Source: an uncultured Actinomycetes bacterium
GTDB lineage: Bacteria; Actinomycetota; Acidimicrobiia; Acidimicrobiales; RAAP-2
Direction: 5' to 3'
DNA: 64,000 bases
Assembly: GCA_903924205.1 (NCBI GenBank)
Contig: CAIYAP010000004.1
Span: 124,001 to 188,000, forward strand
Below are positions 5,586-22,385 of this stretch, piece by piece (position 1 is the stretch's first letter; every line of letters starts with the position of its first letter). The notes beneath the pieces are model-generated. The model was not told the DNA's origin, made no database searches, and was given only the letters and a program-made list of their open reading frames with translations. A program made the translations under genes and the position numbers.

Positions 5586-7328
5586 TTACTTGTTGCCGTA
5601 GCCGTGAGGGTAGTGCCACACCCAGGCGCTGGCGACTTGACGTGGCTGACCCAAAATACCCACCATCCAGAGCGCAATGGTGAGTGGCGCTCGAGCGGCG
5701 CGTGACGTCGTCGGCCCCACGTCAAACGGAATAACCACGTCATTCACGTGCCAGTAGCGAAGAGCGGACTGGACTCGCTGAACTTGTTGCGCCGTCGGAT
5801 GCCACGACAAGTTTGGATACTGGCGCCCATTAGCCATGCGCCAGATGTCGGTATAGCCCGGTCGGGCAAACCCTTGACGACTCGCCAACCACTGCGGCGA
5901 CGTGCCACCCACCATGTCAAATCTCATGTCGTGGAGCGCCTGGACACTGAGGTAGTTGGCCGAGGTATTGAAGAACGGAAAGGCGAGAATAACGTCGTGC
6001 GCAGGGAGCCCTCCTGCTTCCTGGGCAAACCATTTCGGTTCCCACACTCGCTGCGCTTGGTAGGGCGCACCACTAGTGATGTTGGCGAGGTAGGGCGCGA
6101 GAACGGCCGCCAGTATCACGACAACGAGTGGACGGCGAATTCGTGTGAACCGACAGCTCAACACCCACTGCGTGACCAGTGCCACTAATAACGCGGCACC
6201 CATCATCTCGATGATCGCGAATCGTTCATTCACCAAACTGACCAAAGGTCCGATACGGCCAATCCAATGCCATGCCGAATACCAATAGTGCGACCCGAGG
6301 GCGAGCCAACTTCCGCCGAGGAGCAATCCGGTGGCCACCAATAGCGCGCGGCTTCGTGCTCGCCACCAGAGCACCACGCTCACTGCCAGCAATCCGGGGC
6401 TGAGGTAAGTGGGTGGCAAATACAAGAAGCGGTGGCGTGGCCACCACAGGGCGTAATGCGACGAGTGGAAGAAGTACCCCGCCACGCTGGCGGTCGACAA
6501 CGAACCTCCCCAAATAGCGCCGTGATACGAGCTAGGTCCGTAGAGGGCGTAATAGGTGGGAATGGCCAGCACGGCCATGAGCAGAACGACACCCGGAATC
6601 GCCGTTCGTGTGATCTCGCGCCCAGAAATTTTTGGTTCAGACCCTGCCGGCCAACTGAGCACCATGAACACGATGCTGGCGATGACACATATGGCGAAAA
6701 TTTCCGTCGACACGAAAAACTGCGCAATAAACCAGCCGGCGAGCACGAGCGATCCACGTCGCGAGGGTGCACGAAGGTAATCCCACCACGCAGTGGCTAT
6801 CAACGGCGGCCCCGCCAACACCACCATATTCAGGTGCCCGAGCGGCACGCTGTAGATAACCAGAGGGGCGAATCCGAAGAAGAGACCAGCAATCGCGGCG
6901 GCGCCGAAGGACGTCGTGAATCGACGGGCGTATCGAGTCATCGCGAGCGTGGTCACGGTGGGGCCAAGCACTAACCATGTGTTGAAGGTGGCCAGCGGAC
7001 CAAAAACTGCCGTCAAGGGCAACGACACCACACCAATCGCGAGGTAACCCGTATTGCTCAGCAAGTTGGTGCCCTGCGGGAAGAACATGGACCTCGAGAA
7101 CCAGATGGCATGGCCCTGGCGAATCGCTGCCCACGGCCACTCCAAGAACCACGTCGTCAGTGAGGTATCCGAGCACGAACAGGTAGTGGCATGTGTGGGC
7201 GACAAGGTCCACACGTGCACATTCAACGCCACGGCCCCCACGAGAGCGACGACGGTAAGGGCTACCCAGGGCCAGAAACGACGCGGGGCCAACGTTGCGT
7301 GCACGACGCGGATACTACTGAGACCCAT
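5586..7328 (-). CDS. Polytopic membrane protein, GT-C glycosyltransferase-like
   Basis: The protein has about 580 residues. ATG at 7328 is preferred over a TTG at 7343. It has a first hydrophobic helix near residues 20-40, a lumen-side acidic stretch, about a dozen membrane helices, and a soluble C-terminal domain from about residue 430. That domain (DVILAFPFFNTSANYLSVQALH, then MRFDMVGGTSPQWL) resembles the extracytoplasmic tail of actinobacterial proteins annotated as GT-C-like or YfhO-like membrane proteins. Those are thought to transfer sugars from polyprenyl-phosphate carriers on the outer face. No diagnostic catalytic motif is certain. It converges with the zinc-ribbon gene and lies 53 bases downstream of the dioxygenase gene on the same strand, so co-transcription is possible. 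Confidence 0.6.
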   Translation of the reverse strand: MGLSSIRVVHATLAPRRFWPWVALTVVALVGAVALNVHVWTLSPTHATTCSCSDTSLTTWFLEWPWAAIRQGHAIWFSRSMFFPQGTNLLSNTGYLAIGVVSLPLTAVFGPLATFNTWLVLGPTVTTLAMTRYARRFTTSFGAAAIAGLFFGFAPLVIYSVPLGHLNMVVLAGPPLIATAWWDYLRAPSRRGSLVLAGWFIAQFFVSTEIFAICVIASIVFMVLSWPAGSEPKISGREITRTAIPGVVLLMAVLAIPTYYALYGPSSYHGAIWGGSLSTASVAGYFFHSSHYALWWPRHRFLYLPPTYLSPGLLAVSVVLWWRARSRALLVATGLLLGGSWLALGSHYWYSAWHWIGRIGPLVSLVNERFAIIEMMGAALLVALVTQWVLSCRFTRIRRPLVVVILAAVLAPYLANITSGAPYQAQRVWEPKWFAQEAGGLPAHDVILAFPFFNTSANYLSVQALHDMRFDMVGGTSPQWLASRQGFARPGYTDIWRMANGRQYPNLSWHPTAQQVQRVQSALRYWHVNDVVIPFDVGPTTSRAARAPLTIALWMVGILGQPRQVASAWVWHYPHGYGNK

Positions 7329-7381
7329 CTCGCCAGACGTCAACGATGGCTGATGTGACGATTGCCCTCCGCGACCTCTAC

Positions 7382-8326
7382 TCAGAAGGGGCGCTCTCCG
7401 ACGATGCTCGCGCGTTCCATGACTCGTCGTTGCGGCCAGTAATCGCTAAGGGCAAAGTGCTGGACGGCTCGATTGTCCCAGAAGGCGACCGAATGCGGCT
7501 CCCACTGAAAGCGACACTGATACTCGAGGACGTTGGTTTGCGAACTCAAGAAATCGATGAGTTCGTTGCTCTCACCCTCGCTGAGTCCGACGATTGATTC
7601 GGTAAAGGCGCGGTTGACATAGATGAGCTTCTTTCCGGTCTCGCCATGGGTGCGAACAACGGGCTGAATGGTGGGCGGGTATTTCTCGTGCATTGCGGAT
7701 CGACTCTCGTCATCGAGGGTGTGGCCAAAGGCTTTCGTAAAGTCATTCACCGCCGTCAGATCGGCGATGCGCTCCTTCATCTTCTGGCTCAGTCCGTCGT
7801 ATGCGGCGTACATGTCACAAAATGCGGTGTCTCCGCCGACGGCGGGAATCTCGATACCGTGCAGCACCGCGGCCGCCGAAGGGATCTCACGCCACGGCAC
7901 GTCGGAGTGCCACACATTTTCAAATCCCCCGACCTTGGCCTCCTTTTCAAAACGGACGAGTTCCGGCTGCTCCGTGTTAGCGGGAATGAAGGGGTGAATC
8001 TCTAATTCCCCAAAGCGACGAGCGAATGCAACGTGTTGTGCTGCCGTCAGTGGCTGATTGCGAAAGAAAATCACTTTGAAGTCAAGGAGGCAACGACGAA
8101 GCTCGGCAACAACTTCGTCCTCGAGAGGCTGGGTGATATCGACACCTTCAACAATTCCGCCAATGGTCGCACCTAATTGGGTCACCGAAAATCCCGAAAA
8201 GGTCAATGTCGCGAGCCGCTCGCGCTCCTCGGCCAAGTGGGTGACGGGGCCGACCATCACTTTGAAAGGGTGCAACTTCACTCTCTGGGGCTTCACTATC
8301 GCTGCTGGATCAACAATCCCACCCAT
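7382..8326 (-). CDS. TauD/TfdA family Fe(II)/2-oxoglutarate dioxygenase
   Basis: This 314-residue protein begins at ATG 8326 after GGAGGAATTCA. Residues about 45-80 (GFSVTQLGATIGGIVEGVD) match the TauD N-terminal fold. WHSD near residue 140 supplies the HxD iron ligands. The distal His is in NRAVQHFALSDYWPQRR, followed by the Arg (MERASI region) that binds 2-oxoglutarate. Members hydroxylate taurine, alkyl sulfates, herbicides or other small acids with decarboxylation of 2-oxoglutarate. No transporter or sulfur gene lies next to it, so the substrate is unknown. Confidence 0.9.
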   Translation of the reverse strand: MGGIVDPAAIVKPQRVKLHPFKVMVGPVTHLAEERERLATLTFSGFSVTQLGATIGGIVEGVDITQPLEDEVVAELRRCLLDFKVIFFRNQPLTAAQHVAFARRFGELEIHPFIPANTEQPELVRFEKEAKVGGFENVWHSDVPWREIPSAAAVLHGIEIPAVGGDTAFCDMYAAYDGLSQKMKERIADLTAVNDFTKAFGHTLDDESRSAMHEKYPPTIQPVVRTHGETGKKLIYVNRAFTESIVGLSEGESNELIDFLSSQTNVLEYQCRFQWEPHSVAFWDNRAVQHFALSDYWPQRRVMERASIVGERPF

Positions 8327-8510
8327 TGAATTCCTCCTTCCGTCTTCGCGGAATCCTAGTGATGCCTTTCCCGGTAAGAGAATGGCGTACGTCAGTCACC
8401 CGCTCGATTATTGAAATTGTCTCAATGTCATGGTGCATATCAACGCCACCACGTTCTCTATCAACCGCCCTAACTCTCCTTGCGCCCACTGGATAGAGGA
8501 TGTGGGTCCG
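8327..8510. other. Intergenic stretch between dioxygenase and recombinase relic
   Basis: About 180 bases with no credible reading frame. Together with the relic and the left end of the element, 8327-8763 is a 437-base gap without an intact gene. The part near 8327-8345 carries the ribosome site of the dioxygenase on the minus strand. It may include decayed remains of an older element, because the recombinase relic begins directly after it. Confidence 0.5.
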
Positions 8511-8612
8511 TTTTGGTCCCCGATGACATTGGGTTCGACGATGGACGCGTACACGCACCACTTTCAATAGATGGCATAAGGGGAATGACAACTTTGCATG
8601 TTGACGAAAACG
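8511..8612 (+). pseudogene. Relic of the 3' end of a second serine recombinase gene
   Basis: Positions 8511-8586 match 19959-20034, the tail of the intact recombinase, at about 67 of 76 bases. The match includes 31 identical bases (8556-8586 and 20004-20034). Read in frame it encodes VLVPDDIGFDDGRVHAPLSI, against FLVPDGIGFENGRVRTPLSI in the intact gene. The copy has no upstream recombinase domains. It then loses one A in an A-run (8607-8610 against 20055-20059), which shifts the frame just before the tRNA-derived segment. It is therefore the fossil of a related integrase that once abutted the same target site. Confidence 0.85.
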
Positions 8613-8614
8613 TT

Positions 8615-8630
8615 TGGCACTCCCAACGGG
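8615..8630. other. Candidate attL: fragment of tRNA-Glu 3' end
   Basis: TGGCACTCCCAACGGG matches 20064-20079, the last bases of tRNA-Glu (antisense orientation), at 15 of 16 positions. The orientation is direct. Homology to the tRNA stops after this segment. This is the pattern left when an element integrates into a tRNA 3' end and duplicates a short core. Confidence 0.7.
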
Positions 8631-8763
8631 TTCTTCGTGGATTCGATGGGAGGCTTGAAGACGGAATTTCGTCTGAATGATGGGGACAAAACGCGAGTCG
8701 TGCCGCCGAGGTCGCAGGTCTCAGGGCAAGCGACGTCGGCCCCGGAGGACTAAAATATTGGTG

Positions 8764-8946
8764 ATGATTACTCCCGTTGTGTCGATTCGTCCGCTGCATG
8801 AGCAGCAGAGTGACTTGCAGTACTGGCTTGCGAAGAGCCCGTCAGAGCGCATCGCCGCCGTAGAAGTACTCCGCCGTCAAATGATCGGAGAGCCCAGTGG
8901 ATCTGGATCAAGACTTCAACGAGTTTGTTCAATTACTACTCGCTAA
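8764..8946 (+). CDS. Small partner protein of the nucleotidyltransferase
   Basis: This is a protein of 60 residues. ATG 8764 (or GTG 8761) lies 12-15 bases after GGAGG, somewhat far. The pattern RPLHEQQSDLQYWLAKSP, then ERIAAVEVLRRQM and a terminal RLQRV, recurs in small proteins encoded directly before nucleotidyltransferase-like genes in many bacteria. The gene overlaps the next one by 50 bases in another frame, which implies translational coupling. By arrangement it may be one half of a toxin-antitoxin-like pair; which half is toxic, if either, cannot be told. Confidence 0.7.
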   Translation: MITPVVSIRPLHEQQSDLQYWLAKSPSERIAAVEVLRRQMIGEPSGSGSRLQRVCSITTR

Positions 8947-9340
8947 CGACGTTCGATTTCTCATCATTGGGGGCTACGCCCTCGCCGCACATGGCGCCCC
9001 TCGCTACACCGGCGACCTCGACACTTGGCTCTGGGTTAACGACGACAACGCGAATCGCGTGCTTGTCGTTCTTGAAAGTTTTGGATTCGGCTCACTCAAT
9101 ATCACGCGTGAGGATCTTCTCAATCCCAACACCGTTATCCAGTTGGGTTATCCACCCCATCGAATCGACCTGCTCACGGGAATCGATGGGGTGGGTTTTG
9201 ATGAGGCGTGGAATCGGCGTGTGGAATTCGAAATAAATGGTCGGCGGGTCCCATTCATTAGTCGCGAAGACTTGATTACCAACAAGAGGGCGGTTGCTCG
9301 GCCTCAGGACTTGGCCGATGTGGCCAAGCTCGAGGAATAA
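8897..9340 (+). CDS. Nucleotidyltransferase-fold protein, possible toxin-antitoxin partner
   Basis: This 147-residue protein starts at GTG 8897 with GGAG six bases upstream. FLIIGGYALAAHG, then RYTGDLDTWL, is the GG and D-x-D core of the minimal nucleotidyltransferase fold. RIDLLTGI and ISREDLITNKRAVARPQDLADV are typical of the family of short nucleotidyltransferase-like proteins found on mobile elements and in plant-associated bacteria. Such proteins can add nucleotides to a target or serve as antitoxins. It forms a two-gene unit with the small upstream gene at the left end of the element, a usual place for stability or defence cargo. Confidence 0.75.
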   Translation: MDLDQDFNEFVQLLLANDVRFLIIGGYALAAHGAPRYTGDLDTWLWVNDDNANRVLVVLESFGFGSLNITREDLLNPNTVIQLGYPPHRIDLLTGIDGVGFDEAWNRRVEFEINGRRVPFISREDLITNKRAVARPQDLADVAKLEE

Positions 9341-9796
9341 GCGGCCGTCAACAATTTTGGCACCCCTGACGTTTGATGAGTGGAAAATTCTGGTGCGCTG
9401 GATGCACGCAGTGGAGCGTTTCCCTGACTTACTTTGAAAGAGCAATCCAAAATTGCTTTGCAACTCGATTTTTTGGCAATCCAAAATGTTGGCTCGGGGT
9501 CACAAGATGCAGACAGGGCCGCGCGTGAACCTATTGAAAATGAGACAGCTGTCGAATCATCCGTTGGCACGGTTTTAAGATCTTTGGTCTCCTATCGGTG
9601 CCCGGCATATGGATATCGCTCACTATTAACCCCAACTTTGGCCACATTTCTCTCCCGCCAGGGACTGCATCAGTAATCCTCAATTGTGAGGCTTCTCACT
9701 CCTCTAAATGTCACATTTGTGCTCTAAATTAGAGACGTTGGTTCCTCAATGATTCCTGTTAAACTTTCTGGCAGGCAATCGAACTGAGGTGTTGGT
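9341..9796. other. AT-richer noncoding stretch inside the element
   Basis: No convincing gene lies here; an 80-codon frame at 9434-9676 lacks a ribosome site and coding character. The stretch contains an exact 12-base direct repeat GCAATCCAAAAT (9442-9453 and 9476-9487), the first copy of which also forms the short hairpin GCAAT/ATTGC. There are two CTCTAAAT boxes near 9701 and 9721. It probably holds the promoter of the secreted protein gene. I see no RNA gene in it. Confidence 0.5.
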
Positions 9797-9840: not shown

Positions 9841-12228
9841 ATGGCGGTTTCCATATTTATCCTTAGCGGACTCTCGATTCAAATAGTTTCAGGTGCTACC
9901 GCTGGCGCAACGACTACTCCCGGCCAGTTACTTCCCGATCAGGGCCAGTATCATCCGATCACCCCGACCGACGTTTTCGACACAGGGAATGGCACAGGTG
10001 GAGCTCCAGCTTTGATCATGCCGGGACAAACGTTCGTCGTGCCTATCGAAGGATTTACGCCGAGCAATGCCACGATGCCAATTATTCCTTCAGGCGGAGT
10101 GTCTGCGGTTTTCTTGAACATCCAGGTCTTCACGGCGAGCGGATCTGGATCACTGAGCGACTACGAGTCCGACATTTCGAATCCTGGGAACTCATCGGTG
10201 AGTTTTGCGGGCGGCCGTTCAACGAGCGGGTCAGATGTTGTGGCGGTTGCGCCCGACGGAACCAGCAATGCGGGAAATATTTCAATCACTCTCAGCGGAA
10301 ATGGAAACGTGACCTTGGCAGTTCAAGTTGAAGGGTACTTCTCAAGTGCAACTTCCGCTATAGCTGGCGATACCTTTGTTTCTACACCATGGACCCAGTT
10401 GATTGACACGCGGAGTGGATACGGTGGAACTCAAATTGGAGCCATTCAACCGGGTCAGGATCTGGCCCTGAATCCGATAGCACTGGGGATCGCGAACGGT
10501 GTAATCAATACGTCGGCCGCGAATGTTGACGCTGTTGAAATCGAGGTCGGAACGTTACTTCCGAGCGGTTCGGGGATGCTCCGGTTTGTCGGCGGTGGGA
10601 ACAAGTGTGTTGGCGGTCATTATCAAACATCTGCAGTTCGCCATATGTCATACACATCGGGATTGAAGTCCCGTCTGACTGACGTGCTAGAAGGTGAAAG
10701 TACTACTTGCGACCCTTCGGTCAATAATGGTCAGATAGACATCATTAACGCGGGCACGGTTCCAGTTCAAGTCATGGTTAATCTTCGCGGATACTTTATT
10801 TTGCCCAGCACAACAGATGTCGCTGGCTCCGAGTACACGCCTCTTGACGGCGGACCGGCGAAAATTTGTGACACCCGAATAGCGAGTACGTGTACGAGCA
10901 CAGATGGTACTTTTCGGGCTCCGGCGGTAATTCCAGCATACGCCACCATCTCCATCAAGGAAACTGGCCTGGTCGGTATACCTTCGTCGGGAGTCACCGC
11001 AGTCTCGGATCAAATCGACGTTTTGAACGCGACATCAACCGGATGGCTAAACGAATGGACAGGAACGGTTGCGCCTTCGTACGTGGCCCCAGTTGTAAAT
11101 TTCTCTGGAAGCGATTCGGGTGACAATACTCTTGACAACACACAAGTCGTCACGACACCATCGTCGGACGGAATCATCTCGATACAAAATGTCAGCAGCG
11201 GTACGGTCGATGTTGTCATATCCGCCAGGGGTTACTGGATACCTCCAACAGCTCCGGTCGCTCCCGATTCTGTGACTTCGAGCCTTAACGGCACTACCGC
11301 CACGGTGACCTGGGGGTCAGCTATCGACTGCGGAACGCCGATCGACTTCTTCACGATCCTTGACGTCACCAACGGCAATCAAGTGGAGGTTTCCGGAGGC
11401 ATAAATTTTGGCACGGTGCAAGCGAACGCGGCAACCGACGAGATTACTGTCAGCGCGACAAACCTGATCGGTCAGAGCTCTGCGTCTTACCCATCCTTTG
11501 CGGACAGCACCTCGCAAGGGTCGTACTCTACATTTACGCCAAGTGGTGCAGCCTCAACTGCGGATGTCGCTCAGGCAGTCTCTCTCGGCCTGCCCGCTAG
11601 TGTCGTACCTCAACCGGAAGCAGGAGCTGTTCAAGTGTCCGCCGGAACAATCGGCTCGACAAGCCTGGTGCAACTTTCAAACTATTCAATCGTTGAGTCA
11701 CTCCTTGCGAACTCGTCCAGTCTGTCTCCCGATCAACTCGCATTCCTCCAGACAGAACCGGATACGGCGACTTTGGTAACCAGCGCCATTGTGGGGTCAG
11801 TTAATAACACCTCGACGGGCGGAAGTCAACCTCATAGCTCCGGTACCATAAAAGGATGCGGACGCGGATCTGGAAACTGGAATTGCGTCTATACATTGAG
11901 TGAAAGTTGCAATGACCCTTGGTTCTTTGGCGGTACGGTCCAAACGCGTTTCACGACATATGAAGGTATGTCTGGCAATTATAAAACATTGACAAATGTA
12001 TCGTATCCAAACTGGAATTGGGACTGGCAGGTTGGTTGGTCGCCGGACGCACCAGCTCCGGACCTGTCAACGAGTCTGACGAATCATGGCACAGACGGTC
12101 AGATGCTGGCATCTGCATCATTTACGCTCGTGAAACTAACGCTCAAGAATGATTTTGCTTACAGACTCGACGTGAATCCGAAATCGAATGCCACATGGAG
12201 CATGAACATTTCCTGCGACAATTTGTGA
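9841..12228 (+). CDS. Secreted beta-rich protein with three jelly-like repeats and an FN3-like domain
   Basis: This is a frame of 795 residues with lower GC than its neighbours. A hydrophobic segment SIFILSGLSIQIVSGATAGA at the N-terminus is a signal peptide core. Three repeats of about 130-150 residues follow (near 35-170, 175-330 and 335-475). Each begins (Y/W)(H/T)P(I/L)xx..DT(G/R) and ends VxVxGY(F/W), a pattern common in secreted actinobacterial proteins. Residues about 478-560 resemble a fibronectin type III domain. The last 120 residues have several cysteines (CGRGSGNWNC, SESCND, ISCDNL) and Trp-rich YPNWNWDWQVGW. The ATG at 9841 has no ribosome site. An ATG at 9797 does have GAGGTG but is in another frame, so the 5' end may be frameshifted. 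Role unknown. Confidence 0.72.
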   Translation: MAVSIFILSGLSIQIVSGATAGATTTPGQLLPDQGQYHPITPTDVFDTGNGTGGAPALIMPGQTFVVPIEGFTPSNATMPIIPSGGVSAVFLNIQVFTASGSGSLSDYESDISNPGNSSVSFAGGRSTSGSDVVAVAPDGTSNAGNISITLSGNGNVTLAVQVEGYFSSATSAIAGDTFVSTPWTQLIDTRSGYGGTQIGAIQPGQDLALNPIALGIANGVINTSAANVDAVEIEVGTLLPSGSGMLRFVGGGNKCVGGHYQTSAVRHMSYTSGLKSRLTDVLEGESTTCDPSVNNGQIDIINAGTVPVQVMVNLRGYFILPSTTDVAGSEYTPLDGGPAKICDTRIASTCTSTDGTFRAPAVIPAYATISIKETGLVGIPSSGVTAVSDQIDVLNATSTGWLNEWTGTVAPSYVAPVVNFSGSDSGDNTLDNTQVVTTPSSDGIISIQNVSSGTVDVVISARGYWIPPTAPVAPDSVTSSLNGTTATVTWGSAIDCGTPIDFFTILDVTNGNQVEVSGGINFGTVQANAATDEITVSATNLIGQSSASYPSFADSTSQGSYSTFTPSGAASTADVAQAVSLGLPASVVPQPEAGAVQVSAGTIGSTSLVQLSNYSIVESLLANSSSLSPDQLAFLQTEPDTATLVTSAIVGSVNNTSTGGSQPHSSGTIKGCGRGSGNWNCVYTLSESCNDPWFFGGTVQTRFTTYEGMSGNYKTLTNVSYPNWNWDWQVGWSPDAPAPDLSTSLTNHGTDGQMLASASFTLVKLTLKNDFAYRLDVNPKSNATWSMNISCDNL

Positions 12229-13257: not shown

Positions 13258-13400
13258 TGAGAAAGCTCCTGTTCTTCGCACTGGCCGCAACAGTTCTCAA
13301 CGTCCTTGTTGTCTGGGTTCTCACCCACTTCCTCATCGTCGTACTCGGCGCTGCCAGCTGGGGATTTTGGAGCTTCTTCAGAGAGCGTCGCCATGACTAA
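13257..13400 (+). CDS. 47-residue membrane peptide, Spd-like
   Basis: ATG 13257 overlaps the stop of the preceding gene (TAATGA), and the frame ends at 13400, eight bases into the TraB gene. The peptide starts MRKLLFFALAATVLNVLVVW, continues as one long hydrophobic stretch to about residue 41 and ends in RERRHD. It may form one long or two short membrane helices. Tiny membrane (Spd) proteins encoded beside tra help spread plasmids through mycelium in Streptomyces; here the match is by position and size only. Overlaps at both ends support that it is translated. Confidence 0.65.
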   Translation: MRKLLFFALAATVLNVLVVWVLTHFLIVVLGAASWGFWSFFRERRHD

Positions 13401-14688
13401 GTCATCGACGCCGAGCCGTCACCCCTGGACCACTTCGGTGGTCTGGGGGTGGCGTCTCGAACTGCAACTCGGGCTCACTACGGCGTTCGTCATGACCTGT
13501 TCGCTCAACTTCGGCCCAGGTGGACCACTGGCAATCGGTACATTCATGGCAGTTGCACTGTGGCGCTCGCCACAACTGCGACGCACCTTTGAAATCACGA
13601 CCCAACGCAATCACCTCATTCAGTGCCTGCACTTCACGATGCTGCACTGCGGCCTCGTTAATGGACTCGGCCAGATCCCGACTGTGACGAAGTCCGAGAA
13701 CTTGACTGTCGGCTCTCGTCACCTCGTTCGCCTTCCCGTCGGAATTCATTTCGACGCAGTCGACGTCAAGGCTGGTGCGCTAGCCGCGGGACTAGGTATT
13801 CGGTCGGTGCGCGTTTCTCCCGTTCGCTCCAACGCACAGTTCGTGGAGCTAACGCTCATTTCGAGCAACCCCCTCACGGCAGTTCTCCCTATGCCCAAAC
13901 TGGTCGGAACTCGATGCAACCTTTGGGCGCCGCAGGCTCTCGGTATCGCCGACGACGGACGAGCCGTATCGATTCAATTGCCTGAGCACAATCTGTTGAT
14001 TGGTGGAGAACCAGGTTCGGGAAAGTCGGTAGCGCTCTCGTACTTCCTGACTCTCGCTTCCATGGACCCCACTGTCACCATCACGCTTCTTGATGGAAAA
14101 CAGGTCGAGCTCGCGGCATGGAAGTCACTGGCTGACCTCTTTGTGGGACCCAATCAAGACGAGGCAGTCAAAGCACTTCAGTATCTCCAAGGTCTGATGG
14201 ACACGCGATACGACCTCCTGCTCGCTGAGGGTAAGAGAAAGATTGAACCGTCTTCGGGCTTTGGACTGCACGTGGTGATGATTGATGAGTTGGCTTTCTA
14301 CCTCCGCGGGGGCAAGAAGGACTTACGTGAGGCCTTTGCGGAGAGCCTGCGAGACCTTGTAGCCCGTGGACGAGCAGCCGGCATCATTGTGATCGCCGCG
14401 ACCCAAAAGCCGAGCCACGAAGTTGTTCCCACGTGGATTCGCGACCTCTTCGCGTATCGGCTGGCCATGCGTTGCACCTCGAATGACGCTTCGGACACCA
14501 TTCTCGGCAGCGGCTGGGCTCAACGGGGTTTTTCTGCGACTTCGATTGATCCTGCAAATCGAGGCGTGGGTTACTTACTCGCCGAAGGCCATACCCCCGT
14601 TCTCATGAAGCTGCCTTCGATGAGTGATCACGACGTGCGTGAAGTCGTGACCCAAGCTCGCATCATCCGCGGACTGCATGAACGCTGA
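13393..14688 (+). CDS. TraB/FtsK-type DNA translocase of the element
   Basis: The protein has 431 residues starting MTKSSTPSRHPW. A longer frame to 13306 only covers the 47-residue gene in another phase. Two membrane helices lie near residues 25-60. The FtsK/SpoIIIE motor domain has a Walker A GEPGSGKS near 204 and a Walker B HVVMIDELAF near 296, followed by RAAGIIVIAATQKPS, the typical sensor strand. Such proteins form hexamers that pump double-stranded DNA from donor to recipient in actinobacterial conjugation. The C-terminus (HDVREVVTQARIIRG) ends without an obvious long gamma domain, so the DNA-recognition part may be reduced. The stop overlaps the RepSA start by 11 bases. Confidence 0.88.
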   Translation: MTKSSTPSRHPWTTSVVWGWRLELQLGLTTAFVMTCSLNFGPGGPLAIGTFMAVALWRSPQLRRTFEITTQRNHLIQCLHFTMLHCGLVNGLGQIPTVTKSENLTVGSRHLVRLPVGIHFDAVDVKAGALAAGLGIRSVRVSPVRSNAQFVELTLISSNPLTAVLPMPKLVGTRCNLWAPQALGIADDGRAVSIQLPEHNLLIGGEPGSGKSVALSYFLTLASMDPTVTITLLDGKQVELAAWKSLADLFVGPNQDEAVKALQYLQGLMDTRYDLLLAEGKRKIEPSSGFGLHVVMIDELAFYLRGGKKDLREAFAESLRDLVARGRAAGIIVIAATQKPSHEVVPTWIRDLFAYRLAMRCTSNDASDTILGSGWAQRGFSATSIDPANRGVGYLLAEGHTPVLMKLPSMSDHDVREVVTQARIIRGLHER

Positions 14689-15979
14689 TGATCGTCGAGC
14701 CGCGCTGGCCGAAGTGCGGCAAGCTAGCAATTGCTCGCACCCAATTCGCATCGCCGGCGAGATGGTCAACGTCATTACAGGAGAGGTCTTTCGCCGGGGT
14801 CTGACCGTGGCCTGCAAGGATCGCCGGCGCGCCATCTGTCCCGCGTGTTCGTATCTCTACAAAGCCGACGCCTACATCATGGCGGCGGCTGGCCTCATCG
14901 GCGGCAAGGGAATCGACGAGTCGGTACTTCTTCACCCTCGCCTCTTCGTGACGCTGACCGCACCGTCGTTTGGGGTAGTTCACCGAATCACCCACGGTCA
15001 GCAGTGTCACCCCCACCCTCGTGTTACACACTGCGTTCACGGACACTCGCTCGTTTGTCGCCTTCAACACCATCCCGGTGACGCAGTACTTGGCTCACCC
15101 ATATGCCCTCACTGTTTTGATTATGAGGGAGCAGTTCGCTGGAACGCCCACGCCAATCGACTGTGGAACGAGCTCGTGACCCGCCTCCGTCGGGAACTTG
15201 GCGCCTCACAGGGTCTGGTACGCCGTGAACTGCCGCATCACTTCACACTCAACTATTTCAAAGTCGCAGAATTCCAACTGCGCGGACTCGTGCACTTTCA
15301 CGTCGTCCTTCGCGTCGACGGACCAGGAGATCCCAACAACGCTCCGCCCCTCTGGGCAACCGCCGACTTACTCACGCAGGTAATCACCCACTCGGTCCGC
15401 CTGGAGCGTCTCATCCTTGAAACTGGCGACATCCTGACATGGGGTCGCCAGCTCCACATTGCGCAAGTTCACGAGGGACTCGCCGCCAAACGAGTTGCGG
15501 GGTATCTCGCCAAATACGCCGTGAAGACCACCGACGGATCTCTCGAACTGGCCCGACGTTTCACGTCACGCCAACAAGTTGATGATCTCAGAGACCCCCA
15601 CCAGCGCCGTCTGGCCCTCACGGCCTGGGACTTGGGCTTCACCCGCCACGCCCACGCCTTTGGCTACCCCGGCAACCTGATTACCAAGTCCCGCTCTTAC
15701 TCCACGACCTTTCGGGAAATGAGAGAGGAGCGGGCCGCCTACATGGCCCCAAACAACGATCTCGCCGTCATCCCCGGGACCTTCCTCTACGACGGTCGCG
15801 GCTACCTGCACCCTAAAGCCCAAGCCCTCGCCGAGCTCTTCTTCGCCATGGACGTGGAGCTTCGAAAAGAGGCGGCGCAGCGAAAAGTGAGTTCAGAAAT
15901 GAACCCCTCAGAGGATCAATCAATTTCTCAAACCGAAACCCCTGGCTCGCCAAATCCCCAACAAATACAGGAAAAGTGA
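14678..15979 (+). CDS. RepSA-like rolling-circle replication initiator
   Basis: This is a 433-residue protein. RepSA-family landmarks are in order: a Cys pair CPAC (54-57), FVTLTAPSFGVVH (90-102), CPHC (143-146), the metal-binding HUH motif in RGLVHFHVVLRVDG (HFH at 206-208), and AGYLAKYAVKTT (274-285) with the candidate nicking tyrosines. It would nick the element's double-strand origin and start replication of the excised circle. ATG 14678 overlaps the TraB gene by 11 bases, so the two are probably translated together. The last 30 residues are polar and likely disordered. Family match is strong by eye; activity is inferred. Confidence 0.88.
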   Translation: MNADDRRAALAEVRQASNCSHPIRIAGEMVNVITGEVFRRGLTVACKDRRRAICPACSYLYKADAYIMAAAGLIGGKGIDESVLLHPRLFVTLTAPSFGVVHRITHGQQCHPHPRVTHCVHGHSLVCRLQHHPGDAVLGSPICPHCFDYEGAVRWNAHANRLWNELVTRLRRELGASQGLVRRELPHHFTLNYFKVAEFQLRGLVHFHVVLRVDGPGDPNNAPPLWATADLLTQVITHSVRLERLILETGDILTWGRQLHIAQVHEGLAAKRVAGYLAKYAVKTTDGSLELARRFTSRQQVDDLRDPHQRRLALTAWDLGFTRHAHAFGYPGNLITKSRSYSTTFREMREERAAYMAPNNDLAVIPGTFLYDGRGYLHPKAQALAELFFAMDVELRKEAAQRKVSSEMNPSEDQSISQTETPGSPNPQQIQEK

Positions 15980-16743: not shown

Positions 16744-18354
16744 TTAACCCTGAGCCCTCGCTCGCAGCGACCGCACCACGGCCGCGGACAACACGCTCTC
16801 AGCGTGTCGCCAGTGCTCGTCCATCAGAGACTGATCGTGGTGCTCGAGCATGACGTCGGTCAGTTGCTCCCAGAGCGAGGTCGAGGCTTCTGCGACCTTC
16901 AGTCCCCGGCGCAGGGTGGCTTCGGCTCCGGCCATGTCGTTGGCTCGAATCTGTTTGGACGAAAGGGCAAAGGCGAAGTCACTAATGACTCGCTGCATGT
17001 GCGCGATGATTCGTTCTTCGTGCGTCCACTCAAAGTGACGCGTCAGCTCAGCGGTGAAGGGTTGGTCGCGCACGAGAGCCATCGCTGCGACACCCGCGCG
17101 GATTTGTTCTTCGCCACTCGATTCCCCAAAGCGCTTAACCAGGCTCTGGAACTCGTCCCAATCGGTTGTGACGTTGACCAAGCGGTAGGCACCGTCTACG
17201 GCTTCGGGGAGGTGCGCCGCACCGATGGCCTTGCGAGCTTCACTGACATAGTTCAAAAACGTCGCGCGAGCCACGTCTTTGCCGTTGGCACCGAGGGGAT
17301 ACAGCGCCGTCTGGGCGTCATCGACACTGCGAGGGCGTTCAGTGTGAAGTGCCAAGTACACGAGAAAGGCCCGAGCGGGATCGCCGCACCGACCGAGGGG
17401 TGGATTGAACTCCACGTGACCGAGAACGTTGATGCGAACACCTGTCGAGACAGTCCGCGTATCCACTGCTTCCGGTTCGGGCTCACTCACAACGGTCGCT
17501 GGCGTCACTTGCGGCGACACAAATTGGTAGGTGCCGGTTACGGGAGTCTCGCTGACGGCCGCCTCATCAGTTGGACGCGTCCGTCGTCGGCGCCGACGTA
17601 CGAAGAACGCTGCAAAGCCAATCACCGACAGCAGAATCACCCACTGAACGAAGGGATTGAACCAATCGATCCACGTTGGAGGGACTTGCTGGCCGTGGGT
17701 GTTGTAGCTCGGGCTGATGTACTCCAAGCCCTTCGGAAAAGACACGGGAATCACCGTGGGGCCGCCCACGTTGAGGACGGTGTTGTCATTGGCTCCAGCC
17801 GGGCCAAAGAGGGCGCCGATGGTTCTACTCGGCAGTATCTCGACCGACCCCGACCGTTTACTTCGTGGAATCGTGAAGTAGTAGGTGGCATTCAGGAGGC
17901 CATCGTTCTGCGTAGCGTCACCAATCTGCGACGGGTCGATCGGATCCACCCGAGTCGAGGTGTATCGCGTGCCATCACTCGCCACGTACACAATCGACGA
18001 CGCCGGAAGGGGTGTCATGTTGGCGTAGAACACGTACCACAGCGGCGTGCCGTAGGCATGGGCCAGTGGGGCACTGCTCCACTTCAAGCTCAAGTAGATC
18101 GAGGATTTCGGAGCGTTCACGCCACTGCCGTCAGGTCGCCGAGTGTCGAGATTCGCCAAACGCACGAGCACCACGCTTTGGTAGGTGACTCCCGTCGAGG
18201 GATCGGTAATCGGCACGGTGTAGCGCTGAGAGATCTGCTGTTCCGACACGGCACGCCACTGAGAGACCGGCGGCAGCGACCAGGCGGGCGTGGTCGCCGT
18301 GACCAGCGTCCACGTCAGCGCCGCACCGGCAACGAGTCGAGATATGCGAGCCAC
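16744..18354 (-). CDS. Membrane-spanning SARP/BTAD-type transcription regulator
   Basis: The protein has about 536 residues from GTG 18354. The frame is open to 18600 but the upstream part looks non-coding. The N-terminus VARISRLVAGAALTWTLVTA ending PAWS is a signal peptide or anchor. Residues about 30-230 form an outside beta-rich domain. WVILLSVIGFAAFF followed by RRRRRR near residue 240 is a membrane helix with a cytoplasmic stop-transfer. From about 285 the inside part has a winged-helix-like segment (VRINVLGHVEF, LVYLALH, FLNYVSEARKAIG) and then an all-alpha bacterial transcriptional activator domain (WDEFQSLVKRF to the C-terminus). This is a ToxR-like layout with a SARP output. It faces the operon convergently. 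Confidence 0.7.
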   Translation of the reverse strand: MARISRLVAGAALTWTLVTATTPAWSLPPVSQWRAVSEQQISQRYTVPITDPSTGVTYQSVVLVRLANLDTRRPDGSGVNAPKSSIYLSLKWSSAPLAHAYGTPLWYVFYANMTPLPASSIVYVASDGTRYTSTRVDPIDPSQIGDATQNDGLLNATYYFTIPRSKRSGSVEILPSRTIGALFGPAGANDNTVLNVGGPTVIPVSFPKGLEYISPSYNTHGQQVPPTWIDWFNPFVQWVILLSVIGFAAFFVRRRRRRTRPTDEAAVSETPVTGTYQFVSPQVTPATVVSEPEPEAVDTRTVSTGVRINVLGHVEFNPPLGRCGDPARAFLVYLALHTERPRSVDDAQTALYPLGANGKDVARATFLNYVSEARKAIGAAHLPEAVDGAYRLVNVTTDWDEFQSLVKRFGESSGEEQIRAGVAAMALVRDQPFTAELTRHFEWTHEERIIAHMQRVISDFAFALSSKQIRANDMAGAEATLRRGLKVAEASTSLWEQLTDVMLEHHDQSLMDEHWRHAESVLSAAVVRSLRARAQG

Positions 18355-18401
18355 TGACTTGAAACGGTATCGAATGATGCGCGCTATTGGTTGGCACCAC
18401 G

Positions 18402-18701
18402 GTGAGCGGCGAGGACATTTTCGTGGTAACCATTGAAGAACTTCGTCGTGTCCTTGGAACCGACGTGGCGGCGAGTGATGATGACCTGCGCTTTTTACTC
18501 CTCCACCTCTATGGAATCGCTCGCCTCGCGTTGCAGCAAACCGAGATCCCCGCGACCGTTGTGAAAAGAGAAAAGGAGACGTTATGCCCCGGGCCGTCAT
18601 TTACGTTCGAGTCTCGACCGCCGATCAAGTCGACAACTACTCGCTTGAAACACAAGAATCCGAGTGCGCCAAATACTGTGAGCGGCAAGGCCTCGAAGTA
18701 G
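18402..18701 (+). CDS. Small acidic helical ORF preceding the recombinase
   Basis: GTG starts at 18402 or 18423 lead into VTIEELRRVLGTDVAASDDD followed by LRFLLLHLYGIARLALQQ. This reads like a real short helical protein of the type often encoded just before serine recombinase genes. The frame then runs 118 bases into the recombinase gene in another phase, where it looks like a shadow. A true protein might therefore have lost its stop. It could be a directionality factor or regulator, but there is no recognised family. Low certainty. Confidence 0.4.
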   Translation: MSGEDIFVVTIEELRRVLGTDVAASDDDLRFLLLHLYGIARLALQQTEIPATVVKREKETLCPGPSFTFESRPPIKSTTTRLKHKNPSAPNTVSGKASK

Positions 18702-20104
18702 ATCGAATCTTTCGTGAAGAAGGGGAGTCCGCCAAGACGATAAATCGCACAGCGCTCCAGGAAATGCTTCGCTACCTCACGAGCAGCGCGAAGAAGCGAG
18801 AAATCACTCATGTGGTGGTCTATCGAGTCGACCGTTTGGCACGAGAAGTCGGTGGGCATCACACCATTAAGGCCACGCTTTCAAAGCTGAACGTCACGCT
18901 CCATTCGGTTATGGAGCGATTCGACGAGACAGCCACGGGAAAACTCACTGAAAACCTGATGGCGGTCTTGGCGCAATTTGATAATGACTTGAGAAGTCAG
19001 CGCACCAAAGATGGAATGCGTGCGGCCATTGCCCACGGTCGCTGGGTGTGGGGTGCGCCGGTTGGCTACCTTCGAGGTCCCAAAGCTGCTCCAAGTCTGG
19101 TTATCGATCCGGTACTCGGTCCTGTCGTCCGGGAAATCTTTCAACGGGTGGCAAGCGGTGAACGAAAAGACGACGTACGTCTATGGGCGGCAGAACGAGG
19201 CGTATTGACGTCGAAAGGTACGACGCTTCACCCTCAGCAGTTTCATCGCCTGCTCATAAATCCCATCTATGTCGGTTTGGTGGTTGTTCCAAAATGGAAG
19301 GTCACGCATCAAGGTGACTTCGAGCCACTCGTCGACTTTGAGACATTTCGCCTCGCCAACCACACCATCCACTCTGGTGGTGGACGAGCGCGGGAGCGAG
19401 CTCTCAATAACCCGGACTTTCCCCTGCGGCGAGTGGTGCGATGTGGGGAATGCAGCTGGCCTCTCACCGGATCGTGGTCGACTGGAAAAGGCGGAACTCG
19501 TTACGCCTACTACCACTGCCGAAATCGAGACTGTCGAAAGACCCGTGTTCCTAAGGCTGAGTTAGAGGCCATTTTTGAGGAATGGCTCGATGAAACCTCC
19601 TTGCCACCGTCCTTTTTCGATGCACTGGACCTAGTCGTTAGGGATTTCGCTGAAGAGTCTCAGAAAAATAATGTGCGAGCCCGACAGCGCGTTCAAGAGT
19701 CACTCGACGCTCTGTCCGCAAAAGAGTCAAAGCTCATGGATACGTTCCTCTCGGGGGTCGGTATCAACGAAGAGACATTTACTCGCCACCTGCGCGCCAT
19801 TGAGGATGAGCGCATCTCACTGCAAGAAGAGATGGGCATCCTCCTCGTTGACCACATCGACTTCGATGCAGTGATTCAAAAAGCTCGTCAGATAATGGGC
19901 GATCTCAGAACGAGTTGGAACACCCTTGGACCCAATGAACGTAAGGTCTTTCTCCGGTTTTTGGTCCCAGATGGCATTGGGTTCGAAAATGGACGTGTTC
20001 GAACACCACTTTCAATAGATGGCATAAGGGGAATCGCCTCATTAGTAGGCGACGAAAAACGTTTGGCACTCCTAACGGGATTTGAACCCGTGTCGCCGCC
20101 GTGA
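18584..20104 (+). CDS. Large serine recombinase (integrase) of the element
   Basis: This 506-residue protein starts at ATG 18584 after AAAAGGAG. The resolvase domain begins AVIYVRVSTADQ with the nucleophilic Ser at residue 11, then VVVYRVDRLARE. A recombinase domain covers about 150-270. A zinc ribbon (RCGECSWPLT, then HCRNRDC) lies near 285-315, and a coiled coil covers about 365-430. The C-terminal tail ends LLTGFEPVSPP, and its last 41 bases are the antisense strand of tRNA-Glu. Serine integrases need no host factor for integration and a directionality protein for excision. Its place beside the target tRNA with a tRNA fragment at the far end identifies it as the element's integrase. Confidence 0.92.
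   Translation: MPRAVIYVRVSTADQVDNYSLETQESECAKYCERQGLEVDRIFREEGESAKTINRTALQEMLRYLTSSAKKREITHVVVYRVDRLAREVGGHHTIKATLSKLNVTLHSVMERFDETATGKLTENLMAVLAQFDNDLRSQRTKDGMRAAIAHGRWVWGAPVGYLRGPKAAPSLVIDPVLGPVVREIFQRVASGERKDDVRLWAAERGVLTSKGTTLHPQQFHRLLINPIYVGLVVVPKWKVTHQGDFEPLVDFETFRLANHTIHSGGGRARERALNNPDFPLRRVVRCGECSWPLTGSWSTGKGGTRYAYYHCRNRDCRKTRVPKAELEAIFEEWLDETSLPPSFFDALDLVVRDFAEESQKNNVRARQRVQESLDALSAKESKLMDTFLSGVGINEETFTRHLRAIEDERISLQEEMGILLVDHIDFDAVIQKARQIMGDLRTSWNTLGPNERKVFLRFLVPDGIGFENGRVRTPLSIDGIRGIASLVGDEKRLALLTGFEPVSPP
20064..20079. other. Candidate attR inside the tRNA-Glu 3' end
   Basis: TGGCACTCCTAACGGG is the direct partner of 8615-8630 with a single mismatch. It covers CCA, the discriminator, the 3' acceptor strand and the start of the T stem, so integration here restores a full tRNA. 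The exact two-base crossover cannot be placed. Confidence 0.7.
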
Positions 20105-20139
20105 GAGGGCGGTGTCCTAGGCCGCTAGACGATAGGAGC
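20064..20139 (-). tRNA. tRNA-Glu (anticodon CTC), target site of the element
   Basis: This is a 76-base cloverleaf including an encoded CCA (20064-20066). It has acceptor GCTCCTA/TAGGAGT, D arm with GTCT/GGAC, anticodon stem CCGCC/GGCGG with loop CTCTCAC, and T arm ACGGG TTCAAAT CCCGT. The discriminator is G. The 3' end points left into the element. The 3' 41 bases overlap the recombinase gene on the opposite strand. Confidence 0.97.
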
Positions 20140-20180
20140 GTGTAATGCGAAAAGCAATCATACCTGACCGCAACGCATCG

Positions 20181-20253
20181 CTCGGGGGGAAGGGCTCGAA
20201 CCTCCAACCTACGGATCCAGAATCCGCCGCTCTGCCAGTTGAGCTACCCCCGA
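20181..20253 (-). tRNA. tRNA-Gln (anticodon CTG)
   Basis: This is a 73-base cloverleaf with acceptor TCGGGGG/CCCCCGA, anticodon stem GCGGA/TCCGT with loop TTCTGGA (CTG at positions 34-36), T arm GGAGG TTCGAGC CCTTC and discriminator G. CCA is not encoded, unlike the neighbouring tRNA-Glu. It lies 41 bases upstream of tRNA-Glu on the same strand, so they are likely co-transcribed. Confidence 0.96.
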
Positions 20254-20283
20254 AAGGCTCTGTGAGTTTAGCCGGTCGGCGAA

Positions 20284-20937
20284 CTAGGCACCATGGTTGG
20301 GGTGAAAGGCGGCGACACCCGAGGTCCACGACGACAAGGTGCCGTATCCCACAATGCGCCCGACCGACACATCAAGGGCTTCCTTTAAGAAAAACTTCCA
20401 CGCCACCCCCGGTTGTATCCACGAATGCTGCGTCGGGGTCGCGAAGGGCGTGAGACCTTGAGCGGAACAATTAGCCATCGCCCGGTACTCGTGGAAGGGG
20501 TCAGTCACGACCAGGACGTCGGTGGCGTGAATCTTGGACAACAGCGGAATAGCCGTCTCGACGTTTTGCCACGTATCAGATCCACCGCCTAACAGGACGC
20601 GAGACCTCGGAACTCCGTGCTGCACGAGATACTGAGCCGACGCTTGGGCCTCGGTGTAGATATCCCCCGGGCGCTTCCCGCCGGTCACCACTATCCACGG
20701 TGCGCGCTTCTCGTCATACAAGGTGACGGCCTGATCGAGTCGCCGCGCCAAAGTCGGCGACGGTGTGAGCCCGTAGCTCGCTGTTCCGAACACGATGATG
20801 GCTTGACCCGAATGCGGCGAGTAATCACGACTCGTCAACCACACTTGACCAAGGCCGAAGAGGTAGTACACCAGCACCAGCGACACCAGTGCGCTCAGCA
20901 CCTTGACGACCAACTTGATCGGCCAGAGGAAAAACAT
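20284..20937 (-). CDS. SanA/YdcF-like DUF218 membrane protein
   Basis: The protein has 217 residues. An N-terminal membrane helix (about 5-32) is followed by the DUF218 domain: AIIVFGTASYG, LARRLDQAVTLY, WIVVTGGKRPGD, TEAQASAQYL, ETAIPLL and VLVVTDPFHEYRA. DUF218 proteins such as SanA are tied to cell-envelope integrity; their chemistry is poorly known. The start overlaps the gltX stop by one base (TGATG), so it is translationally coupled to gltX. It faces the two tRNAs downstream. Confidence 0.85.
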   Translation of the reverse strand: MFFLWPIKLVVKVLSALVSLVLVYYLFGLGQVWLTSRDYSPHSGQAIIVFGTASYGLTPSPTLARRLDQAVTLYDEKRAPWIVVTGGKRPGDIYTEAQASAQYLVQHGVPRSRVLLGGGSDTWQNVETAIPLLSKIHATDVLVVTDPFHEYRAMANCSAQGLTPFATPTQHSWIQPGVAWKFFLKEALDVSVGRIVGYGTLSSWTSGVAAFHPNHGA

Positions 20938-22385
20938 CAGCCAGCGCGCTCGAGGGCCATCGTCAGGCGCGCCACCACTTCATCGCGGCCCAAAACGTCG
21001 AGAGATTCGAAAAGTGGGGGTCCAATCAGGGCGCCCGTCACTGCGAGGCGAATGGGCGCTTGACTCTTACGTAAGTTCATACCGTGGTTTTCACCAATCT
21101 GGGCGACCAGGGCGTGCAGGTCCTCGCTCGTCCAACTGGTGCCAGCGTTCGCCGCGGCAATGACATCGGCGAGCACCGCCTTCGCCGCGTCGTTCGAGGC
21201 GATGATCTTGACGAAGTCGTTCTCCGCCATGTCCGGACGACGAAAGAAGAAGCCCACCATGGCGGGCACTTCGCTCAGGACCGTCACTCGCTCTTGGATC
21301 AACGGTGCCATGACGTCGAGAACCTGCGGTCGGAAGTCCTCCGATGCCCATGGCGTCTCGTAATCGGTGGGGTGCCAGTCGCTGATCTCGGGCTGTAGCC
21401 AGGGTTGGGCCGCGGTCAAGAATTCTTCCGTGCTGAGTCGCCGCACATACTCACCGTTGATGTGGCGCATCTTGGCCATGTCGAAGAAGGCGGGTGAATG
21501 CGTGACATCGGACAGTTCGAACTGGGCAATGAAGTTTTCAATGGGCTGGATTTCGTCGCCTTCGCGCGGACTCCAACCACAGAGCGAAAAGAAGTTGACC
21601 AGGGCCTGGGGCAGATACCCCTCATCGCGGTAGGACTCCACCGAGACGGGGTCTTTGCGCTTCGAGAGCTTCTTGCGCTGTTCGTTCACCAAGAGTGGCA
21701 GGTGCGCGTAGAGGGGAACCGGTACGCCACCGAAGTCCGGTGAACTGGCAAGTGCTTCCCACATCAAAATCTGCTTTGGCGTGGTCGGCAGCAAGTCTTC
21801 GCCACGAATGATGTGCGTCATGCCCGCATCGCGGTCATCGACGGCATTCGCCAAGGGGTAGAGCACTCCCCCGTTACTACGCAACACGACGAAGTCTTCA
21901 TAGTTCGCCAACTGAAATTCGATATCGCCACGAATCTGGTCGCGCACCACCACTGAGCCCTCGTCCGGCACGCGGAAACGTAGTGCGGTAGTGGGGCCAC
22001 GCTCGAGTTGGCGATCACGGCAGTGTCCGTCGTATCCCGGAATGGGGTTTCCCTTAGTGCGCTCCTGCACCAGCTCGGACGTGCAGTCACAGGCGTACAG
22101 ATGGCCGGCGGCCCACAGGGCTTCGGCCGCCTGCGCATGTCGCGGAGCATTGTGGCTTTGAAAGCTCGGACCCTCGTCATACGTGAGACCCAGCCAGTTC
22201 ATGGCCGAGATAATGCCGTCGGTCCACTCTTGACGACCGCGCGACACGTCCGTGTCTTCGATACGCAGAATGAATGTGCCCCCATGCCCGCGGGCGTAGA
22301 GGTAGTTAAAAAGGCTGGTGCGCGCCGAGCCGACGTGGAAGTACCCCGTGGGAGAGGGCGCGAAACGAACGCGAGGACCGGTCAC
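20937..22385 (-). CDS. gltX: Glutamyl-tRNA synthetase
   Basis: This 482-residue class I synthetase charges tRNA-Glu (and, in species without GlnRS, tRNA-Gln for later amidation). RFAPSPTGYFHVGSARTS carries the HIGH-type motif. LRIEDTDVSR and THIIRGEDLLP are the glutamate and ATP pocket segments, and KKLSKRKD near residue 245 is the KMSKS-type loop. The C-terminal anticodon-binding domain is full length. Its gene is followed by the DUF218 gene and lies 0.7 kb from tRNA-Glu(CTC) and tRNA-Gln(CTG), both cognate or misacylated substrates of this enzyme. Confidence 0.97.
   Translation of the reverse strand: MTGPRVRFAPSPTGYFHVGSARTSLFNYLYARGHGGTFILRIEDTDVSRGRQEWTDGIISAMNWLGLTYDEGPSFQSHNAPRHAQAAEALWAAGHLYACDCTSELVQERTKGNPIPGYDGHCRDRQLERGPTTALRFRVPDEGSVVVRDQIRGDIEFQLANYEDFVVLRSNGGVLYPLANAVDDRDAGMTHIIRGEDLLPTTPKQILMWEALASSPDFGGVPVPLYAHLPLLVNEQRKKLSKRKDPVSVESYRDEGYLPQALVNFFSLCGWSPREGDEIQPIENFIAQFELSDVTHSPAFFDMAKMRHINGEYVRRLSTEEFLTAAQPWLQPEISDWHPTDYETPWASEDFRPQVLDVMAPLIQERVTVLSEVPAMVGFFFRRPDMAENDFVKIIASNDAAKAVLADVIAAANAGTSWTSEDLHALVAQIGENHGMNLRKSQAPIRLAVTGALIGPPLFESLDVLGRDEVVARLTMALERAG

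Follow-up and report, generated by a model that had tools for sequence, protein, structure and literature searches.

What left the end of a recombinase gene beside a fragment of tRNA, far from the intact gene that it resembles? We addressed this question in a stretch of 64,000 nucleotides from an uncultured actinobacterium (the window), where the segment 8511-8630 had been initially annotated as a decayed recombinase tail left by successive integrations at one tRNA. The intact gene belongs to a resident element and encodes a large serine recombinase (LSR) of 506 aa (18584-20104, forward strand, as are all features below except the tRNA; PF00239, PF07508, PF13408). The protein has the Resolvase and Recombinase domains and the zinc ribbon, and the coiled coil is represented by a long helix at residues 342-389 in a low-confidence model; the AlphaFold model in question (three sequences; mean pLDDT 50, residues 454-506 unresolved) is uninformative on the tail because of this poor quality. 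The last 13 residues (LALLTGFEPVSPP) are encoded by the att core and the antisense strand of the target gene, tRNA-Glu(CTC) (20064-20139, reverse strand; ARAGORN), the ORF stopping at tRNA position 39. Together with the att cores at 9357 and 20062, a pSAM2-type RepSA replication initiator (14678-15979; PF20199, E 2.8e-101) and a TraB-like FtsK/SpoIIIE transfer protein (13306-14688; PF01580), this recombinase would make the resident element AICE-like, as judged here from its genes. The genome carries a second same-clade recombinase (66% aa identity) at tRNA-Glu(TTC) on contig C5, where IS3-family ORFs separate it from the tRNA (L043 9469-10693) and the recombinase ends at about codon 488.

We compared 7501-9700 with 18001-21000 by BLASTN and found a single strong match, 8511-8630 against 19959-20079 (99/121 identical, 82%; one gap; E = 5e-29). 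The initial annotation was thus right about a recombinase-tail copy left of the core, but the 88% identity that it gave for about 100 bases is confined to the first 76 nt of the match (contig coordinates 143959-144034); without the core, the fossil gene end (8511-8612, the last ~102 nt of an LSR gene) is identical to 19959-20061 at 82/102 nt (80%). The recombinase frame is retained in the fossil over 34 codons (65% aa identity, E 2.8e-7 in a whole-genome search), and the one-base frameshift that had been noted is a deletion around 8607 (AAAA vs AAAAA), just 5' of the att core at 8613 (core1). The nearest relative of the fossil is the resident recombinase (80%), other recombinases reaching 42-60%.

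Relative-rate tests placed most of the change on the fossil side: 13 fossil-only vs. 1 resident-only changes with G118 as the outgroup (p = 0.0009), 12 vs. 1 and 11 vs. 1 with two further outgroups (p = 0.0009-0.003 over the three), and a weaker excess with two more distant outgroups (9:2 and 8:3; p = 0.03 and 0.11). Third codon positions hold 11 of the 20 differences between fossil and resident (p = 0.04), which suggests that part of the divergence predates decay and arose while the sequence was still coding; note that the divergence estimate is rough, since the fossil is short. These sequence comparisons fit a decayed sibling of the resident LSR whose function was lost later, and the excess of fossil-side changes after the split from the resident recombinase agrees with the proposed decay of a related element. 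That the fossil element was the older of the two, as had also been proposed, we do not retain: the sequence data give no order of arrival.

The att core, TTTGGCACTCC[C/T]AACGGG, lies at both 8613-8630 and 20062-20079, and the 1.66-Mb assembly holds three copies: core1 (TTTGGCACTCCCAACGGG, 8613-8630), the tRNA-side core or attR at tRNA-Glu(CTC) (core3, 20062-20079, also delimited by the BLASTN match), and one at tRNA-Glu(TTC) on C5. On reading the flanks we noticed a further core, TTTGGCACCCCTGACG at 9357, which a core scan delimited as core2 (TTTGGCACCCCTGACGTT, 9357-9374); the same site occurs in G013:C73, and core2 is the probable attL of the AICE. The recombinase-to-tRNA junction, which had been described as the same at the fossil, is repeated in part: the tRNA 3' end at core1 is limited to 16 nt (8615-8630), and what lies beyond is not tRNA but a decayed orphan recombinase tail or P' arm, ALPTGSSWIRWEA followed by a stop (8617-8658), recognised by the pattern GCACYCCYRRYR-N9-TGGA and its in-frame peptide. 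Core2 is likewise joined to an orphan native C-terminal tail, APLTFDEWKILVRWMHAVERFPDLL followed by a stop (9360-9437), whose frame continues that of the recombinase through the core, so that the sequence 3' of each left core is an in-frame LSR C-terminal tail, not tRNA body. Because a decayed LSR tail follows core1, the fossil junction is attP-like.

Between core1 and core2 lies a nucleotidyltransferase module alone, with no recombinase (8677-9340, including a small ORF in front; the gene itself at 8897-9340, DUF6036/DUF2204 by Pfam). With att cores on both sides and its own recombinase absent, the unit 8613-9374 has the make-up of a CIME, and its content is probably toxin-antitoxin-type cargo. 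Homologs of the module (84-90%) are found in G013, G016, G019, G114, and G122, some of them beside tRNA-Glu or att cores; in G013 the module directly adjoins tRNA-Glu(TTC), and a separate contig of that genome, C73, begins at a core2-like site and continues with HipBA and then tRNA-Glu(TTC). To the left of the core1-module junction, the flank is different in each of this genome (G000), G013, and G016, and core1 is therefore a true insertion boundary. As read from the window, the array runs fossil, core1, nucleotidyltransferase module, core2, AICE, tRNA. Core1 had been the initial candidate for attL; with the module in between, core2 is the more likely left end of the present AICE.

Reading the recombinase frame across core2 gives the tail APLTFDEWKILVRWMHAVERFPDLL, and the G013 counterpart is APLTFDAWKILVRWTRSVERFPDLP, each ending in a stop; 9 of the 14 base changes between these native tails fall at third codon positions (p 0.017). 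The motif GCACYCCYRRYR-N9-TGGA has 16 matches in 99 genomes, vs. 4 for the reversed control, and 12 of the 16 carry a related tail or a decayed form of it (A[LP]PTV.SWN.L..W); the motif was built from six sites, all among the 12, so that six are independent. Tails were found in G000, G013, G016, G031, G081, G083, G110, G111, and G118, with orphan tail pieces at att cores in seven genomes besides this one. Ten of the 12 tails lack an upstream recombinase (among the sites G013:C73 starts 17 bases before its core, the upstream sequence lying outside the contig), the exceptions being the fossil at core1 of the window and G111:C29, in which an open recombinase frame, aligned over 167 residues, runs through the core into a native tail as one ORF, at a single tandem-like or circular junction. 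Recombinases that adjoin tRNA-Glu end instead in PTGFEPV[LSP]PP or LTGFEPVSPP (eight integrated copies, seven genomes). The simplest reading of the orphan tails and of the G111:C29 ORF is that attP would lie inside the LSR gene, and the tails could be conserved partly as DNA-binding arms. A bolder reading, which we consider somewhat less likely than not, is that attP in the 3' coding region allows a tail of ~20-40 residues to be swapped, on integration into tRNA-Glu, for one of 13 as an integration/excision switch of directionality or activity, the severed tails at attL recording past insertions.

We searched same-genus relatives for fossil-like sequence downstream of tRNA-Glu(CTC) genes that have no adjoining recombinase and found no match. 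Since it is absent at these element-free sites, 8511-8612 is not conserved chromosome, and the initial view that recombinase sequence has no place in a plain chromosomal flank withstood, among these relatives, the comparison that had been named as able to overturn it. G118, at 97% identity over the tRNA locus, carries another recombinase allele (66% in the tail); on the left, its synteny with the window stops at 7324, and we found no match in its assembly to the TauD gene of the window (7382-8326). G016 has both a TauD homolog and the sequence from 8617 on (90%), ~11 kb apart, with no recombinase end found left of its core. On its contig C27, TauD and the att core are separated by the gene for a secreted repeat protein of 3041 aa (L080 2263-11388).

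Same-clade recombinases adjoin tRNA-Glu(CTC) or tRNA-Glu(TTC) in all seven genomes checked for this junction (G000, G071, G079, G081, G110, G111, and G118), and those at tRNA-Glu share the frame and stop at tRNA position 39, except for the IS-broken copy on G000:C5. These junctions support the use of tRNA-Glu(CTC) by several elements, that is, repeated integration at one tRNA, as was originally suggested. The closest relatives are mostly fragmented MAGs, and the contigs of G016, G013, and G118 break off within the hotspot. Contigs G005:C40, G007:C4, G013:C31, G017:C51 and C73, G023:C56, and G036:C28 likewise end at, or a few dozen bases from, tRNA-Glu, and such repeated contig ends suggest strain variation at the site.

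We consider it quite probable (roughly 80%) that 8511-8612 is the surviving end of a second LSR element that once stood in tandem with the present one at tRNA-Glu(CTC). Instead of entering in two site-specific steps, the tandem could have come from a dimer that integrated, or from a circular element that recombined homologously with a resident sibling; the fossil junction would then be a former attP between two copies, the left of which was later deleted. The junction of recombinase end, core, and recombinase tail has exactly the make-up of an attP, and no recombinase is nearer to the fossil than the resident one; against this, the decayed tail after core1 is not of the type that the resident element has at core2, and core1 with its module has other left flanks in G013 and G016. 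Two tandem copies would thus not have been identical, and we regard this origin as unlikely. That the best match of the fossil is the resident recombinase would equally be expected if imprecise excision or a local duplication had left behind the recombinase end of the present element itself; however, a 20% divergence with a partly coding pattern requires a long separate history, and the decayed tail after core1 is again unlike that of core2, which makes such an origin improbable.

In some elements the attP arms are similar to attB flanks, and ordinary chromosome downstream of the tRNA, captured by the recombinase as an attB-like arm, might on that ground be considered. Nothing similar, however, lies downstream of tRNA-Glu(CTC) in element-free relatives, and a recombinase reading frame held over 34 codons is hard to reconcile with captured chromosome, which we hold to be very improbable. 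An assembly artefact might come to mind where MAG contigs of the genus so often end at tRNA-Glu, but a copy that is 80% identical is not a collapsed or duplicated repeat, and the segment lies inside a 228.8-kb contig; an artefact is barely credible.

On the preferred reading, of a second tandem LSR element, the body of the lost element would have been deleted, leaving ~102 nt from the end of its recombinase gene beside an att core. The recombinase would join attP, located in the 3' part of its own coding sequence, to the tRNA-Glu 3' end, and integration would restore the tRNA. The main part of the recombinase gene would come to lie beside the tRNA and take its new terminus from 13 codons of core and antisense tRNA, and the native tail of about 20-40 codons would stay behind at the far end (attL). 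Newcomers would enter at the regenerated tRNA end and older elements would be lost by deletion, so that the site would have filled in at least three units: the fossil recombinase end, the nucleotidyltransferase module (core1-core2), and the AICE (core2-tRNA). The order of events, excision, and any effect of the tail exchange are what we infer from the sequences, frames, and comparative junctions given above. A search of 7300-8600 revealed no further trace of the lost element.

Tandem accretion through entry at the tRNA-proximal att site has already been described (PMC5704250) and is an established process at tRNA genes, so that the fossil, taken by itself, documents repeated visits well but is nothing out of the ordinary. 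As in CIME/ICE accretion, there is a decayed neighbour, att cores stand between the units, and the newest element lies beside the restored target; the present site differs in having a serine-family recombinase and a neighbour reduced to a recombinase end (PMC5704250). A CIME keeps both att sites, whereas the fossil has lost its genes and its left att core was not found in 7300-8600, in the rest of the left part of the window, or in 20 kb further left (L044). The RepSA initiator, the FtsK-type transfer protein, and site-specific integration are shared with pSAM2-type AICEs (PMC3218068). The survey of these elements places AICEs in Actinomycetales only and has the serine recombinases of Mycobacterium AICEs using tRNA-Leu (PMC3218068); here, by contrast, the target is tRNA-Glu, the lineage is seemingly another actinobacterial one, and the recombinase ORF runs across the att core. 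At tRNA genes, serine recombinases have been described as unknown (PMC4383910) or, in the AICE survey, as rare, with tRNA-Leu in Mycobacterium AICEs and phiRSM1 named (PMC3218068).

Should the tail exchange prove real and functional, it would offer an easy way to test how integration can be signalled to a serine recombinase, and orphan tails would provide a sequence signature of old insertions that lack a recombinase. IntP of phage Mx8 is a tyrosine recombinase. Its gene is cited as spanning attP (PMC4383910), and in this and in the archaeal SSV-type 'suicidal' integrases attP lies in the integrase gene, which integration alters or splits, much as proposed here (PMC4383910; PMC8371274). Self-disrupting recombinases have been described as archaeal only; the SSV-type enzymes are tyrosine recombinases that are split into Int(N) and Int(C), with the catalytic part separated, whereas here only a C-terminal tail of ~20-40 residues would be exchanged (PMC8371274). 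The resident enzyme is a serine recombinase that keeps all known LSR domains, and so differs from a suicidal integrase of the SSV type. In mycobacteriophage integration-dependent immunity attP also lies within a gene whose product has its C-terminus changed by integration, but that gene is a repressor and not a recombinase (PMC8092301). In the open-access literature searched, no bacterial serine recombinase was found to exchange its own tail on entering a tRNA, which suggests that such an exchange would be new for the family.

Single-sequence scans of genome contigs and viral contigs with the recombinase found no relatives. Alignment-based searches returned just two MAG copies, both already known, from the genome contigs and, from the viral contigs, a 35% relative that ends in tRNA-Arg, along with others more distant; in phage and plasmid collections, recombinase relatives were all <28% among the matches listed. 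The 35% relative (L194 9977-11551; IMG/VR UViG_3300026223_000008) reads in frame through tRNA-Arg(CCG), and an ORF crossing into the target tRNA may therefore extend beyond the genus; a second att core of this tRNA-Arg element was sought and not found.

Several smaller features were also seen. Small TA modules (HipBA, FitA/PIN, Gp49/HTH, YefM/ParE, AbiEii, or nucleotidyltransferase) lie beside att cores, often at tRNA-Glu(TTC), as in G031:C58 (L182 2174-4783), G083:C73 (L185 335-1032), G013:C73 (L116 285-1768), G110:C50 (L183 6330-7684), and G118:C164 (L184 2675-4236), a pattern that looks like insertion sites shrinking to an orphan tail and a TA module. In G112:C151 (L121 2517-3625), tRNA-Glu(CTC) has an extra tRNA-Glu(TTC) as its neighbour, and a nucleotidyltransferase module and a longer fragment of tRNA-Glu come next. 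The motif CCCACTAAACGGGGCATAG lies 5' of the core at several tRNA-Glu(TTC) sites (G013:C31 and C73, and C5 of this genome at 10690-10710, L043); we considered it as an IS end and rejected this, as it is found without an IS in G013. Finally, the acceptor stem of tRNA-Glu(CTC) in this genome and G118 carries a compensated C-to-T change relative to other relatives, and core1 retains the C (20073 vs. 8624).
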